Assembly (NCBI RefSeq): GCF_001707915.1
Contig: NZ_MAVV01000007.1
Span: forward strand, 1 to 49,037
Reading direction: 5' to 3'
Source: Thermodesulfovibrio sp. N1
GTDB lineage: Bacteria; Nitrospirota; Thermodesulfovibrionia; Thermodesulfovibrionales; Thermodesulfovibrionaceae
Length of the DNA: 49,037 bases
The number at the start of each line of letters is the position of its first letter. The first letter of the stretch is position 1. Shown here piece after piece: positions 1 to 5,806 of the stretch. The notes under the pieces are model-generated. The model had not been told where the DNA came from, ran no database searches, and saw only the letters and a program-made list of their open reading frames with translations. The position numbers and the translations under genes were made by a program.

Positions 1-311
1 TTTATTCTGTCCAACTCATTCTGAATAGCTAAAAGTCCTCTTCTTCTTGCAAGTATTAAAAGTTCTAAAATTATATCAATTGTTTCCTGATAGGATATTT
101 TTCTGTTAATGAATATTAATTTAAGGGATTTCAATGCAATATTTAAATCCTTAAGAGGAAAACTAAGTAGAACAGCTCCTATGGTTCCTCCAAAAACAAT
201 AATTGCTGCAGCCAATTGAACTAAATGACCTGTTGTTCCACCTTCAACAATATTTCCTACAACAACCGCACAAATTCCTATGATTAAACCTAACAGGGCT
301 ATAAAATCCAT
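1..311 (-). CDS. motA: Flagellar motor stator protein MotA, N-terminal part (runs off the window)
   Basis: The reverse strand from an ATG at 311 encodes 103 codons without a stop and continues past base 1. It opens MDFIALLGLIIGICAVVVGN, followed by GGTTGHLVQLAAAIIVFGGT and a short stretch ending in a basic ARRRGLLAIQNEL segment. This is the N-terminus of MotA/PomA: first membrane helix, the periplasmic turn with GG, second helix, then the cytoplasmic region. MotA forms the proton- or sodium-driven stator with MotB, whose gene would be expected further to the left. No Shine-Dalgarno is visible before the ATG, but a good promoter ends 5 nt upstream, so the transcript is probably leaderless. Identification is by sequence recall; the rest of the protein is not visible. 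Confidence 0.88.
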   Translation of the reverse strand, partial: MDFIALLGLIIGICAVVVGNIVEGGTTGHLVQLAAAIIVFGGTIGAVLLSFPLKDLNIALKSLKLIFINRKISYQETIDIILELLILARRRGLLAIQNELDRI

Positions 312-316
312 AAATA

Positions 317-345
317 AGTATATAATTATTTATTGCTTAATTCAA
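317..345 (-). promoter_or_regulatory. Predicted sigma70-type promoter of motA
   Basis: Read on the minus strand: TTGAAT (340-345), a 17-nt spacer, TATACT (317-322), then five bases to the motA ATG. The -10 is so close to the start codon that the RNA would begin at or next to the ATG. Confidence 0.55.
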
Positions 346-495
346 GTAGGAGATTAATATTCTTTGAAAATATTTTAACAGGATTCGCTTATGAGAGATT
401 TTATGGACAGTTCTAAGCTTGCATATTGTGGTCATTCCGAGGGGTTCAATACCCCGAGGAATCTCTCATTAAAGAATCTATCTGGTGAAAAAGGA

Positions 496-572
496 GGAGA
501 TACTTCACCTTCGGCTCAGGGTGACAGCCAACAATACTGTCATTCTGAGGCACGAAGTGCCGAAGAATCTCA
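496..572 (+). repeat. Composite repeat unit, copy A
   Basis: Two units in opposite orientation (496-525 and 539-572) joined by a 13-nt linker, AGCCAACAATACT (526-538). The same arrangement recurs at 906-986, 1401-1472 and 1491-1568, and in reverse complement around 3975-4028. Copy A ends seven bases before the last base of the GIY-YIG stop codon. Confidence 0.85.
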
Positions 573-579
573 TCTTTTT

Positions 580-870
580 TCAAACAATCTCCTCATATAA
601 ATCCTTCCACATTGGGTTAAATTCCTTTATCAAATCCTCCTTTTTTTCTCTCTTCCATCCTTTTATTTGTTTTTCCCTGTTGATTGCTTCCTTTATATCA
701 TTGAAAACTTCATAATATACAAGCTTTGTTAGATTATACTTAGCAGTAAAGCCTTCTACTAGTTTATTTTTATGCTCGTAAACTCTTCTTACCAAATCAT
801 TGGTTACACCTGTATAAAGAACAGTGTTATATTTATTCGTCATAATATAAACATAATAATGTTCACTCAT
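580..870 (-). CDS. Single-domain GIY-YIG nuclease (UPF0213/YhbQ-like)
   Basis: A 96-residue protein made of one GIY-YIG fold. Visible motifs: YVYIM (residues 6-10, the GIY strand), YTG (19-21, the YIG strand), R28/R29 and H33 after it, the family block NREKQIKGW (64-72) carrying the likely metal-binding Glu66, and a C-terminal FNPMWKDLY. Family members are small metal-dependent nucleases of uncertain substrate. The open frame runs up to 1023, but its extra N-terminus is translated repeat, so I start at the ATG at 870, where homology begins; the ATG at 885 is an alternative. Hairpin repeats lie 7 bp from one end of the gene and 35 bp from the other, in inverted orientation relative to each other, and composite units in direct orientation flank both sides. 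The gene has no operon partner. Domain assignment is firm; a role with the repeats is inference. Confidence 0.88.
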   Translation of the reverse strand: MSEHYYVYIMTNKYNTVLYTGVTNDLVRRVYEHKNKLVEGFTAKYNLTKLVYYEVFNDIKEAINREKQIKGWKREKKEDLIKEFNPMWKDLYEEIV

Positions 871-905
871 GGCATATTTTATCATAAAATACTGACAGAA
901 AAGGA

Positions 906-986
906 GGAGACCCTTCGGCTTACGCCTCAGGGTGACAAACAACAATACTGTCATTCTGAGGGAGCGTATGCGACCGAAGAATCCCC
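906..986 (+). repeat. Composite repeat unit, copy B
   Basis: Units 906-936 and 950-986 in opposite orientation, joined by the linker AAACAACAATACT (937-949). It has the same orientation as copy A at 496-572, so the GIY-YIG gene lies between two direct copies of the composite. Confidence 0.85.
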
Positions 987-1400
987 TCCGAATGTTGTCA
1001 TTCTGATCCCTCTTTTTTGTCATTCTGAGCGTCAGCGAAGAATCTCCTTCTTGTCTTAAAGGAATGAGACCCTTCGGCTTACGCCTCAGGGTGACAATAA
1101 AGGATCATTCTGGATTTTTTATTTTGTCATTCTGAACGGAGCGATAGCGAAGTGAAGAATCCCCTCTGTTTTCCGTCATTCTGAGCCGAAGGCGAAGAAT
1201 CTCATACTTATTTCTGAGAAAGTTCCTTCGCTCTGCTCAGGCCAGCGACTCGGGGTATTGAACCCCTTCAGAATGACAGAAAGGAATGAGACCCTTCGGC
1301 TTCGCCTCAGGGTGACAATAAAGAGGTGTCATTACGAACATATTTCCATGTCATTCGGAGGCACGAAGTGCCGAAGAATCTCATCTTTTTTCTCAAAGGA

Positions 1401-1568
1401 GGAGATCCTTCGCCTTCGGCTCAGGATGACAGCCAACAATACTGTCATTCTGAGCGTCAGCGAAGAATCCCCTCCTTTTAACAATCGGAAGGAGATCCTT
1501 CGGGGCATTGAGCACCTAAGGGTGACAAACAACAATACTGTCATTCTGAGCGTCAGCGAAGAATCCCC
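1401..1568 (+). repeat. Composite repeat units, copies C and D
   Basis: Copy C joins 1401-1430 and 1444-1472 with the linker AGCCAACAATACT (1431-1443). Copy D joins 1491-1526 and 1540-1568 with AAACAACAATACT (1527-1539). Linker length is 13 nt in both. Confidence 0.82.
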
Positions 1569-1619
1569 TCCTTTTTTTCTGAGAGATTCCTCGGGACATT
1601 GAGTCCCTCGGAATGACAA

Positions 1620-1646
1620 TAAAAAAGGCGGGGAGGAATCCCCGCC
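1620..1646 (-). terminator. Rho-independent terminator of the porin gene
   Basis: On the minus strand, GGCGGGGA, a 4-nt loop and TCCCCGCC (1627-1646) form a perfect 8-bp GC-rich stem, followed by a run of six T. It lies 33 nt past the porin stop codon. Confidence 0.88.
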
Positions 1647-1652
1647 CTATGA

Positions 1653-1664
1653 CGGACACGGTGC
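1653..1664. repeat. 12-bp inverted repeat flanking the porin gene, 3' copy
   Basis: CGGACACGGTGC at 1653-1664 is the exact reverse complement of GCACCGTGTCCG at 3284-3295. One copy lies between the porin stop codon and its terminator, the other in the predicted 5' leader. Confidence 0.8.
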
Positions 1665-1678
1665 GTTTTTTTTAATTA

Positions 1679-3166
1679 TTAGAATCTAAGCTGGATACCA
1701 TGTCTTACTGCCCAGGCATCATCTGGGTCTTTACCGCCTTTCATTTTGTAAGCATCACCTGGCCAGAAGTAGCCACCCTCTACGAAGTAGGTGAGACCCT
1801 TGTCAATCTGATAAGTTACCTTAGCATCAACTTCCCAACCAAGGTCTTTGTCTGGTGATGGAGCAGTTCCTGTTCCTACATTTGAATTAATAGCAACTGC
1901 TTTGTGGGCTCTTAACCAGTAACCATAAAGCTCAGCCTTGAGGTCTTTTGTGATGTCATAGGCACCACCGAACTTTACATACTGGGTGTTGCAGAGACCG
2001 GTTCCAACTCCACCATCACAAGCTGAAGGTGCAAGATACTCATATACAAATGTATAGTGTTGTTCTGGCCCGAGAGCAGTTACAAAATAGGTGAAATCTT
2101 CGCTATCTTCTTTCTGACCGCTTCCAATTGCATACTCAAGAGTAAGTGAAAGAGGGATTGTCTTGAATTTGTAGTCCAGTCCAGCCATAGCTGCCCACCC
2201 TTTAAATTTTGGATCATGTCCAAATGGTAAATCAACTTTTCCAGTCTGAAACTCAACATCTGCTTTAAAAGCAAGTCCTGTACCAGCAATGTCATCTACA
2301 TTTCCTCTTAAACCGAAGTTCCAAAGATGAAGAGGTGCAAATCCTGCTCCAACTCCAGGTACAGAAATATAACCGAATTTCTGATGATCAACATAAGTAA
2401 TATCGGCGCTTAAACCAAAGCCTTTTCCTGCATAAGCTGCAAGAATTCCATAAGCTGTAGCATCATCGTTAAGAAAAGTATAACCTTCATAAAATTTGAT
2501 TGTATGGGCCGCGAGGGTAAGTTCCTTCATTGGCTGAACGAATGCAAGAATTGCATCGTCACCATAGTAGGTGTGGTCAAAGAAGAGTCCATAGCCAAGC
2601 TTAATGAGCTGTTTTCCAACCTTTACACCAGCGGGAACACCGAGAAGCCCACTTCCCTGATACTGAATCCATGCCTGACGGATGTAGAGATTGCTTTCAT
2701 CATGCCAGTTACCCATTGGATAATTACCTTTTGGACCTTTTGAGCCACTGCCCCAGTAAACATTCTCTGATGCATTAGCCCCCTTTCCTTCGTCATAGGT
2801 TCTATTACTCTCAATTTCTACATATCCAGTAGTATTAGGAGATACCTTAGCTTCTAATGAAAGTCTAACTCTATAATCGTAGTATGATGTGTTTTTACTT
2901 TTTTGAACTGGGACTGTTATTTGACTACCACTAATAAGGTCATAATATGTTAAATTCTGAGTTCCATAATAACCCTCATCTTTTATAACTAAATTGCTTC
3001 CATACATTCCCCTGAATCTCAACTCACCGCCGAGGGTTATCTGGGTTTTGCCTTTTGCGATTACTGCTGAGGTGTCTGCTGGAATCTCTGCTGGTGCAGA
3101 GTAAGAGATGGCTGCAAAGCCAAGAAGAAGAACAAATACGGCTAAAAGACTTGCATATTTTTTCAC
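1679..3166 (-). CDS. Outer-membrane beta-barrel porin
   Basis: A 495-residue protein with a typical Sec signal peptide (basic MKKYA, hydrophobic core to about residue 20, cleavage near SYSA-PAE at 24). The rest is rich in alternating aromatic/polar strands with Gly-Asp-Asn turns, and the last residues HGIQLRF end in the Phe that outer-membrane barrels use as the BAM recognition signal. It resembles porins annotated as alginate-export-like, but the transported substrate cannot be read from the sequence. The start is GTG at 3166, preceded by GGAGG seven bases upstream. The gene stands alone, with a near-consensus promoter, a leader of about 155 nt and a strong terminator, which suggests high expression. 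Repeat fields lie on both sides, one repeat is inside the leader, and a 12-bp inverted repeat brackets the gene. Confidence 0.85.
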   Translation of the reverse strand: MKKYASLLAVFVLLLGFAAISYSAPAEIPADTSAVIAKGKTQITLGGELRFRGMYGSNLVIKDEGYYGTQNLTYYDLISGSQITVPVQKSKNTSYYDYRVRLSLEAKVSPNTTGYVEIESNRTYDEGKGANASENVYWGSGSKGPKGNYPMGNWHDESNLYIRQAWIQYQGSGLLGVPAGVKVGKQLIKLGYGLFFDHTYYGDDAILAFVQPMKELTLAAHTIKFYEGYTFLNDDATAYGILAAYAGKGFGLSADITYVDHQKFGYISVPGVGAGFAPLHLWNFGLRGNVDDIAGTGLAFKADVEFQTGKVDLPFGHDPKFKGWAAMAGLDYKFKTIPLSLTLEYAIGSGQKEDSEDFTYFVTALGPEQHYTFVYEYLAPSACDGGVGTGLCNTQYVKFGGAYDITKDLKAELYGYWLRAHKAVAINSNVGTGTAPSPDKDLGWEVDAKVTYQIDKGLTYFVEGGYFWPGDAYKMKGGKDPDDAWAVRHGIQLRF

Positions 3167-3169
3167 TTC

Positions 3170-3212
3170 CTAACCTCCAATTGGTTAGTTCAGTTACACC
3201 GCCAAAGACGGT
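3170..3212 (-). promoter_or_regulatory. Porin ribosome-binding site inside possible leader hairpins
   Basis: On the minus strand, CTAACC and GGTTAG (ends of 3170-3188) can pair around a 7-nt loop, placing the GGAGG ribosome site partly in the stem. A second small hairpin, CACCG/CGGTG (3196-3212), lies just upstream. This could tune translation; no known riboswitch class is recognised. Confidence 0.35.
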
Positions 3213-3283
3213 GGTACTACATAATAAGGATGAGATTCTTCCCCTTCGCTGTTGCTCAGGGTCAGAATGACTCCTACGTTAAT

Positions 3284-3295
3284 GCACCGTGTCCG
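3284..3295. repeat. 12-bp inverted repeat flanking the porin gene, 5' copy
   Basis: GCACCGTGTCCG here is the exact reverse complement of 1653-1664. With two mismatches the match extends to 16 bp. It lies about 30 nt into the predicted porin transcript. Confidence 0.8.
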
Positions 3296-3329
3296 CCTCT
3301 CACCTCCTTTGTTTTTTAAGTTTTAAAAA

Positions 3330-3358
3330 AGTTTACCATACTTTTTTTATGTTGTCAA
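3330..3358 (-). promoter_or_regulatory. Strong predicted promoter of the porin gene
   Basis: On the minus strand: TTGACA (3353-3358, perfect -35), 17-nt spacer, TAAACT (3330-3335). Transcription would begin near 3322, giving a leader of about 155 nt that contains the 12-bp inverted repeat, one hairpin repeat and the ribosome site. Confidence 0.75.
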
Positions 3359-4173
3359 GTGTTTTTTGAGGATGAGATTCTTCACTTCGCTAACGCTTCG
3401 TTCAGAATGACAAAAAGAGGGGATTCTTCGCTTCGCTCAGGGACAGATAAAAGAAGATCCGAATGACAGAATAAAATTCAGAATGACAACCCCTTTTGTC
3501 ATTCCGAGGGGGTCAATCCCCCGAGGAATCTCTCAGAAAAAAGAGGGGGATTCTTCGCTGACGCTCAGAATGACTCCTTCCTTTGTCACCCTTTTTTTCT
3601 TCTGTCACCCTTTTTCCCTCTTTTCTGTCACCCTGAGGCGTAAGCCGAAGGGTCTCCTCAAAAAATATGAAAAATAATTTTTCAAAGAACATTTTTTTGT
3701 CTAAAAAAGCAAATTTTTTGCCATATGGGGAGGGTTGATTTTTAAATGTTTCTTTTTAATTTGTGTGTGTTTTTTGATACATTTTGTTGAAAAAAAAGGA
3801 CAGAGGAGGGGATTCTTCGCTTACGCTCAGAATGACTTTTTTATTGTCACCCTTTTTTCTTTCTTATCACCTTTTTTTCTTGTCACCCTGAGGGACGAAG
3901 TCCCGAAGGGTCTCATTCTTTTGAGACAAGAGAAGGAGATTCTTCGCTATCGCTCAGAATGACAAAAAAAGAGGCTCAGAATGACAGTATTGTTGTTTGT
4001 CACCCTGAGGCGCAAGCCGAAGGGTCTCATTCTGATTGAAAAGGAGGGGATTCTTCGGCACTGCGTGCCTCAGAATGACAGGGAAAGAAAGTAAGGGATT
4101 CTTCGCTATCGCTCCGTTCAGAAGGACAGAATAAGGGGAGTAAGGTGATAAATAAAGGAATAAAAGAAAAAAG

Positions 4174-4203
4174 TTGATAAAAGTTTACAAAAATAAATAA
4201 AAT
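4174..4203 (+). promoter_or_regulatory. Predicted promoter of the TPR gene
   Basis: TTGATA (4174-4179), 18-nt spacer, TAAAAT (4198-4203), then only six bases to the ATG at 4210. No Shine-Dalgarno is present, so the transcript is probably leaderless. Confidence 0.55.
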
Positions 4204-4209
4204 TTAATT

Positions 4210-4806
4210 ATGCCAAAGCAGAAAATTAACACAAAACTTAAAATAATCAAGAGAAACAAGCACGATATAGCAATTGCTAAATATACAAAAATTATTGAAG
4301 CAGAACCAGGAAATTATCAGGCTTATAAGGAAAGGGGAAATGCCTATTACAGAAAAAAACTCTATCATTTAGCTATTGCTGATTACACAAAGGCTATTGA
4401 GCTTAAACCTGATTACTTCCTTGCCTACAACAACAGAGGTATTGTTTATTCTGTTCTGGGATTGTATGAACTTGCCATTTCTGACTATAACAAAGCCATA
4501 GAACTTAAGCCTAACAATGGTATGCCTTACAATAACAGAGGCTTTACTTTTTTGTTAATGGGTAAAATTGAAGAGGCTGAAAGGGATATAAAAAAATCTG
4601 TTGAGTTAAACCCAAATAATATTTATGCATTAAACAGTATGGCTGAGCTTTACGCAGCAAAGGGAATGCCTGAGGAAGCCTGTGAATGGCTAATTAAAGC
4701 AATCAGCAAAGGATACAATAACTGGAATTATCTGAAAAATTCCAAAACCTATGATCCAATAAGAAATCATCCATGTTTTAAGGCTATTCTTGAAAGAAAA
4801 ATTTAG
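4210..4806 (+). CDS. Tetratricopeptide repeat protein
   Basis: A 198-residue protein made almost wholly of about four TPR units, roughly residues 18-51, 52-85, 86-119 and 120-153, each with the pattern A-Y-x-x-R-G and a following DYTKAIEL-P type helix (DYTKAIELKP, DYNKAIELKP). TPRs form a helical scaffold for protein binding. There is no signal peptide or membrane helix, so it is probably cytoplasmic. It is the first gene of a plus-strand run with the DUF3108 protein, uvrA and rluD. The partner and role cannot be told from sequence. Confidence 0.85.
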   Translation: MPKQKINTKLKIIKRNKHDIAIAKYTKIIEAEPGNYQAYKERGNAYYRKKLYHLAIADYTKAIELKPDYFLAYNNRGIVYSVLGLYELAISDYNKAIELKPNNGMPYNNRGFTFLLMGKIEEAERDIKKSVELNPNNIYALNSMAELYAAKGMPEEACEWLIKAISKGYNNWNYLKNSKTYDPIRNHPCFKAILERKI

Positions 4807-4810
4807 GGAT

Positions 4811-5806
4811 ATGAAGTTCAAATGGATTGCAATAGCTTTGGTTATTTCTCTATTTTTTCACATCGGAGTATTGCTTGGCTTTGGTAAAATTCATATTAGC
4901 CTTCCTTCCTTTTACTTTATAGAAACTTTCATTCTTTCAAAAGAAAAAAAGCCAACAACCTCACCTGAACTTAATGAAAAAATTCAGCAAGAAAGTGAAA
5001 ATGTAAGTGAAAAAAATGGGAATAGTGAAATTCAAAGGGATACAACTGAAGAAAAAGAAGAATATTTAACACAGAATGAAGTTGAAAGTCTAAGCAAACT
5101 CTCTGAAGAGAAAAAAACAGAAGAAGTCCCTGTTATTCATAACAACTTTAAAAAATTCATTAATGAAAAAATGAGATTTGACATATACTGGATGGGAATT
5201 TATGCAGGTTATGCATTGATTAATGTAAAAGGAAATGAAAAGGAAGTAAAAATTATTTCAGAGGTTCATTCTGCACCATTTATTTCAAATTTCTACTATG
5301 TAAATGATAAGGCAGAAAGTACAATTGAACATGGAAAACCAAAACATTTTAGATTTTTGCAGATTGAAGGAAAACATAGAGGTGACAAAGAAATCCATTT
5401 TAACTATGATTCTAAAGAGATTACATTTATAAATCACATTAAAAATAAAGTTTCCATTCATAAGGGTGTTGAAAAGGTCTTCATGGATGTTTTATCAGGC
5501 TTTTTCTATCTTCGCAGTTTATCCATTGAATTAAATAAACCTGTTTTAATTGACATCTTTGACAGTGACAAATTCGCTACAGTTGAGGTAAAACCTATAA
5601 AGGAAGAGGTTATAGAAACTTCACTTAATAAAGAAGTGAAAGCTTTGGTTGTCAAACCTGAACTTACAACAGAGGGATTATTTAAAAGAAAGGGCGATAT
5701 TTTTATCTGGTTAAGTAATGATGAAAGAAAAATTCCATTAAGAGTTGAAACAAAGGTTTCTGTTGGTAGAGTTGTTGCAGAATTAAAGGAGTACAAAAAA
5801 GACTAA
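4811..5806 (+). CDS. DUF3108 family envelope protein with N-terminal membrane anchor
   Basis: A 331-residue protein. Residues 1-25 form one hydrophobic segment after MKFKW, followed by a charged Lys/Glu-rich linker to about residue 100 and then a globular C-terminal domain with alternating beta pattern of the DUF3108 type (starts near MRFDIYWMGIYAGYA). The layout, an anchor, a low-complexity periplasmic linker and a folded domain, suggests a periplasm-facing protein tied to the inner membrane. I chose the ATG at 4811; a TTG at 4790 in the same frame would overlap the TPR gene and add a charged stretch before the anchor. The stop is two bases from the uvrA ATG. Function is unknown. Confidence 0.72.
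   Translation: MKFKWIAIALVISLFFHIGVLLGFGKIHISLPSFYFIETFILSKEKKPTTSPELNEKIQQESENVSEKNGNSEIQRDTTEEKEEYLTQNEVESLSKLSEEKKTEEVPVIHNNFKKFINEKMRFDIYWMGIYAGYALINVKGNEKEVKIISEVHSAPFISNFYYVNDKAESTIEHGKPKHFRFLQIEGKHRGDKEIHFNYDSKEITFINHIKNKVSIHKGVEKVFMDVLSGFFYLRSLSIELNKPVLIDIFDSDKFATVEVKPIKEEVIETSLNKEVKALVVKPELTTEGLFKRKGDIFIWLSNDERKIPLRVETKVSVGRVVAELKEYKKD

Follow-up and report, generated by a model that had tools for sequence, protein, structure and literature searches.

A candidate 5′–3′ UTR clamp on the mRNA of an outer-membrane porin in the genus Thermodesulfovibrio

Near the beginning of a contig of Thermodesulfovibrio sp. N1, a porin gene is bracketed by two short sequences that are complementary to each other, which raises the question of whether they act in DNA, as the ends of a segment that has moved or can invert, or in RNA, by joining the two ends of one message. 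The window, i.e. the whole stretch of DNA that was analysed (49,037 nt), is contig 7 of a 1.92-Mb genome, denoted G000; the other genomes compared carry G-numbers of the same kind. A first-pass annotation of this DNA had reported a perfect 12-bp inverted repeat between the porin leader and the stretch separating the stop codon from the terminator, and the repeat is exact: the 12-mer GCACCGTGTCCG lies at 3284–3295 on the plus strand and its exact complement at 1653–1664.

The two arms and the porin transcript

Allowing up to one mismatch, these are the only two matches to the 12-mer in the window, none was seen in 100 shuffles and the remainder of the G000 genome holds one additional place, with one mismatch. 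On the transcript (minus) strand the match grows to 14 pairs, 3297–3284 with 1664–1651, one of which is G–U. The features of the locus, all on the minus strand, are as follows.

3330..3358, minus strand: sigma-70-like promoter of the porin transcript, TTGACA-17-(TG)TAAACT, 10/12 with TG before the second hexamer
3300..3310, minus strand: extended Shine-Dalgarno-like element AAAGGAGGTGA, ~135 nt before the porin start, with no conserved ORF
3284..3297, minus strand: 5′ clamp arm, reading GGCGGACACGGTGC in the transcript, containing the 12-mer at 3284–3295
3197..3213, minus strand: predicted leader hairpin, CACCGTC-TTT-GGCGGTG
3170..3188, minus strand: hairpin CTAACC..GGAGGTTAG with the true Shine-Dalgarno of the porin, its helix kept by RNAalifold
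1679..3166, minus strand: porin gene, 495 aa, GTG start, Pfam Alginate_exp (PF13372) at 2.2e-15
1651..1664, minus strand: 3′ clamp arm, reading GCACCGTGTCCGTC in the transcript, 14 nt past the stop codon, containing the 12-mer at 1653–1664
1625..1648, minus strand: hairpin resembling an intrinsic terminator, with a U tract after it and a counterpart by eye in 8/8 genus loci

The porin also matches an NCBIfam porin family, under its cut-off. Since a promoter-like site lies upstream (3358–3330) and a terminator-like hairpin downstream (1648–1625), both arms should, as a prediction, be transcribed. The promoter comes from a consensus scan only, which found 3 such sites against 4.1 in shuffles; by eye, promoter-like sequence occupies the same place in G012, G002, G004, G014, G009, G011 and G013, and is not evident in G001. 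The terminator-like hairpin starts 2 nt past the 14-nt 3′ arm, and the leader arm is internal to the mRNA, ~26–40 nt from the predicted transcript start and not at the very end.

The leader arm follows 2–3 nt downstream of AAAGGAGGTGA, which we take to match the anti-Shine-Dalgarno end of 16S rRNA over a long stretch. This element is identical in seven of the eight genus loci and present as a variant in G011, and when the eight loci were inspected by eye no small conserved ORF was seen past it and no common start codon at 5–9 nt, leaving a strong Shine-Dalgarno-like site in the leader that has no ORF at normal spacing.

The first-pass annotation had also placed two repeat fields outside the arms. 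Real fields of dispersed short repeats do lie on both sides (430–1620 and 3230–4140); they lie around the porin, are dense, hold repeats of the GTCATTCTGAG..GAAGAATC type in both orientations and extend into the leader, and the 12-mer is no part of them. Through such repeats the spacer from the clamp arm to the start-proximal hairpin varies between species. An ORF with a GIY-YIG domain (580–1023, minus strand; 9e-17) sits inside the repeat field, and G001 and G012 likewise have relatives of it on the downstream side of the porin.

Conservation and covariation of the arms across the genus

The porin is present in 51 of the 61 genomes searched and in 9 of the 16 genomes of the genus. The gene is open in G000 and in six others (G012, G002, G004, G014, G009 and G001), is represented in G013 by its first part only, at a contig end that removes the 3′ end, and is split in G011 into two frames (L011 1501–2370, L052 2981–4463); the arms of G011 still pair, with changed bases, and the broken frame may reflect either faulty assembly or gene decay. 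All eight genus loci with both gene ends have one arm after a AAAGGAGGTGA-like element and the other between stop codon and terminator, always in the same orientation. The uninterrupted helix measures 14–16 pairs in seven species and 11 in G011, where the helix contains one mismatch and 14 of 15 aligned positions pair. The 5′ motif pattern occurs once each in 8/16 genus genomes and the 3′ motif pattern once each in 7/16, all of them among those eight, and both lie always at the porin; the changed arms of G011 are missed by both patterns, and G013, without its 3′ end, is the eighth genome with the 5′ motif.

The eight arm pairs were aligned over 15 pairs, i.e. 120 cells, with segments joined by hand. 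Standard pairs fill 116 of the cells (96.7%), 108 being Watson–Crick and 8 G–U, compared to 24–43% when the partner is slid by 1–3 columns. Both partners changed in six of the 15 pairs, one partner in another three and neither in the remaining six, and the seven-base core CACGGTG is constant in 7/8 loci. The remainder of the UTRs has largely diverged between species, while the arms changed in step at those six pairs. Neither the covariation score nor the count of doubly changed cells was reached in any of 500 shuffles, and the count of doubly changed pairs was reached in 5 of 500; the pair-type count goes against covariation, as it does not rise above the shuffles (393/500 reach it). When the 3′ arms were reassigned among species, 12 of 40320 permutations equalled the observed pairing, and these are the 2! 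× 3! swaps among identical 3′ arms (G002/G004; G012/G014/G009). Such controls do not remove relatedness among eight loci of one genus, and independent covariation events are not countable because the porin tree is poorly, and for the most part not, resolved.

Shuffling of the segments reached the observed match in 0/500 cases for seven of the eight species, and reached the 11-bp best uninterrupted helix of G011 in 12/500. Together with the absence of matches in the 100 shuffles of the window, and with arms that are kept together and covary across the genus, this bears out the initial view that the repeat was unlikely by chance. Conservation or covariation of both segments in relatives had been proposed as the check to make, and both are seen, the arms occurring together in 8/8 two-ended loci.

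Folding of whole predicted transcripts, with the start set 28 nt before the core of the Shine-Dalgarno-like element and the end at the U tract, gave the seven-pair helix core a probability of >0.99 at 37 °C and at least 0.98 at 65 °C in all eight cases. In most species the clamp and the hairpin before the start codon coexist in the predicted fold, and in most the Shine-Dalgarno-like site is mostly open. The leader hairpin at 3197..3213 has pairing probabilities at 65 °C of 0.20–0.27 in G000, and its listed pairs reach 0.73–1.00 in six other members of the genus and ≤0.06 in G011. The suggestion that the transcript ends could pair is thus strongly supported, by arms that are jointly conserved, covary and are closed in whole-transcript folds. 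Because relatives changed both halves in step and so kept the match, the pairing is very probably real; the ends of the porin mRNA very probably pair, with the pairing used by the cell, and comparison of the sequences makes it highly probable that the RNA pairing itself is a selected feature.

Other genes, and porins outside the genus

Leaders and 3′ regions were scored against each other in 678 ORFs, seven porins included, and dispersed repeats aside no other gene came close to the porin clamps. In the first sample (331 ORFs from 18 stretches of seven genus genomes) three dispersed-repeat matches rank highest, at 89, 49.5 and 42.5, the second being the window porin itself; six porin clamps follow (35.5–40.5), and then the best other non-repeat score, 31.0. 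Dispersed repeats score high through their own complementarity, and such matches were discounted after inspection. The second sample (347 ORFs from 20 further stretches of G009) had a best score of 33.5, against 35.5–40.5 for the seven porin clamps, with 36.5 for that of the window porin. Because the sample comprised 678 ORFs, other clamped genes may exist.

Outside the genus, no signal of a clamp appeared in 23 porins (self 22.0 vs cross 21.6), nor in the 25 of 33 loci in whose leaders a pattern search found a Shine-Dalgarno-like element (self 18.0 vs cross 17.7), a test in which the script-chosen start codons are doubtful in L018, L021, L025 and L026, the 3′ UTR of L017 is cut by a contig end, and the eight loci without the pattern, which is too strict for some of them, were left out.

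The leader has a second, start-proximal motif (3164–3215, minus strand), in which a three-base-loop hairpin is followed by a start-site hairpin, CTAACC..GGTTAGGAAGTG, that holds the Shine-Dalgarno. Of 121 genomes of the order, 40 are hit by a leader model built from 15 loci, one of them at two places and the others at one each; because several rows are a column out of register, the covariance model, R1, keeps only one of the two hairpins, and the search is mainly sequence-based. All ten non-genus matches that were fetched precede a porin-like ORF, as judged by eye from length and N-terminus, and against Rfam 15 positions 1–5000 of the window gave eight weak matches, none at the gathering score. 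The order-wide leader does without the clamp in porins beyond the genus, and so does not depend on it; the simplest reading is that the clamp was added within the genus to a porin leader of older origin.

What the clamp may do, and known systems

Our reading, to which we give a probability of about 0.6, is that the arms form a cis-acting 5′–3′ UTR clamp comparable to that of Bacillus subtilis hbs, and that this clamp holds the porin mRNA closed and shields it from degradation. That the clamp works in cis on its own mRNA is likely, and stabilisation is, by a modest preference, the net effect we infer. In the cell, a helix of 14–16 uninterrupted pairs would close the porin mRNA on itself, and a ribosome or 30S subunit at the Shine-Dalgarno-like site could, together with the end clamp, shield the leader from RNase E/G and RNase Y, giving a long-lived porin message. 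RNase Y and RNase E/G are encoded in the genome; RNase J, the 5′ exonuclease of Bacillus, has a sub-cut-off match only. Intact messages would be favoured, because breakage anywhere loses the clamp, and the effect would mainly be on mRNA stability, because the porin Shine-Dalgarno is uncovered and the arm lies directly past the Shine-Dalgarno-like site. Because the leader arm stops short of the 5′ terminus, it is doubtful that the clamp hides the 5′ phosphate directly.

The same pairing might instead be repressive, either by lowering porin translation or by creating a substrate for RNase III, as in Staphylococcus aureus icaR. The helix is double-stranded RNA, it contacts the leader beside the Shine-Dalgarno-like site, and the start-proximal hairpin of G004 offers the 3′ arm a second, weaker partner of 8 bp; however, no anti-Shine-Dalgarno motif occurs in the 3′ arm, and the leader arm starts 120–276 nt ahead of the start codon, therefore leaving the porin Shine-Dalgarno uncovered, and we consider repression unlikely. 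More speculatively, and only as a tentative idea, the message could be a closed loop in which the Shine-Dalgarno-like site is a ribosome dock and the clamp returns ribosomes terminating near the 3′ end to it, so that they recycle on intact porin messages; if true, this would be an equivalent of the eukaryotic closed loop made of RNA alone.

The 3′ arm could also be the seed of a 3′-UTR-derived sRNA that acts in trans on its own mRNA leader, a feedback of the OppZ/CarZ kind. Such an sRNA would give identical covariation, and would fit the placement of the arm immediately ahead of a terminator-like hairpin and its U tract. The usual RNA chaperone partner of 3′-UTR-derived sRNAs is Hfq, and a search for it, whose control matched 5/14 known genomes, gave no match in the genus (16 genomes, 11 near complete). 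With Hfq unmatched, a leader arm that does not overlap the porin ribosome-binding site and a single other near match (1 mismatch) in its own genome, this explanation seems improbable.

As a DNA element, the arms would either bound, as its terminal inverted repeats, a porin cassette that has moved or can invert, an option that the first-pass annotation had offered, or be paired operator half-sites for a protein. Inverted repeats can stay matched at the DNA level too, the core CACGGTG is unchanged in 7/8 loci, and the neighbours of the porin differ among many species. Yet the Shine-Dalgarno-like site and the terminator, which lie outside the arms, are kept in 8/8 loci, as is the promoter in most; there is no second copy in the G000 genome and no inverted state among the eight; and the 8 G–U cells among the 116 paired, neutral in RNA, would be mismatches in DNA. 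The neighbourhood is, moreover, partly common to G012/G009, to G002/G004/G014 and to G014/G011. With promoter, Shine-Dalgarno-like site and terminator outside the repeats and the orientation constant, a mobile or invertible cassette is unlikely, and we regard a DNA element of any of these kinds as very improbable. Synteny, also tried as a criterion for a cassette, gave partial and mixed evidence, G000 sharing only the GIY-YIG ORF with G001 and G012. Since neighbour genes are only partly shared, rearrangements around the porin appear common, with the arms not singled out, and there may have been a larger rearrangement of the porin region, as these genes differ between many species. A fortuitous ancestral match that has yet to decay, for which one could cite eight related loci and 6/15 invariant pairs, is hardly credible given arms that changed in step at six pairs within otherwise diverged UTRs and a match that 0/500 shuffles reach in 7/8 species.

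A stabilising clamp is therefore favoured: the porin Shine-Dalgarno is free, the arm lies beside a Shine-Dalgarno-like element, the anti-Shine-Dalgarno motif of icaR is absent and hbs is the closest known system. A limited, word-based search of the open-access literature found no earlier report of the clamp or the leader. For the Shine-Dalgarno-like site, the nearest likeness is the STAB-SD of cry mRNA, reportedly described by Agaisse and Lereclus in 1996 as a leader Shine-Dalgarno without an ORF of its own. The site in the porin leader is likewise without a conserved ORF and its stabilising role is putative; unlike STAB-SD, it is followed directly by a clamp arm.

In S. aureus icaR, according to the passages on it in PMC3868564, a 7-nt UCCCCUG anti-Shine-Dalgarno motif located 260 nt past the stop codon covers the ribosome-binding site, whereas the porin arms are 14–16 nt long and leave the porin ribosome-binding site free, so that a 3′ UTR motif over the ribosome-binding site of the ORF is not what is found here. 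OppZ and CarZ of Vibrio cholerae are presented in the relevant parts of PMC7821165 and PMC8406224 as autoregulatory sRNAs derived from 3′ UTRs, which RNase E sets free and which target a ribosome-binding site in trans; as in that account, 3′ UTR sequence would pair with its source mRNA in the porin, but in a genus in whose 16 genomes Hfq was not found.

Few bacterial mRNAs with pairing ends are known. In the hbs mRNA of B. subtilis (Braun, Durand and Condon 2017), as summarised in sections of PMC7821165 and PMC8406224, a 14-nt pairing between 3′ UTR and 5′ UTR protects from RNase Y. As in that description, pairing in the porin is between the UTRs of one mRNA, with complementarity longer than expected by chance, and RNase Y is encoded here too; unlike hbs, it concerns another gene, phylum and sequence, and the protection is one we infer. 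The part of PMC7821165 on functional 3′ UTRs, that of hbs included, notes a lack of conservation among close relatives, whereas the porin clamp is conserved by covariation. Placed beside a ribosome-docking-like site it offers a compact, testable system, and a genus-wide, compensatory 5′–3′ clamp on an outer-membrane porin message would be evolutionary evidence that bacteria can select closed mRNAs.
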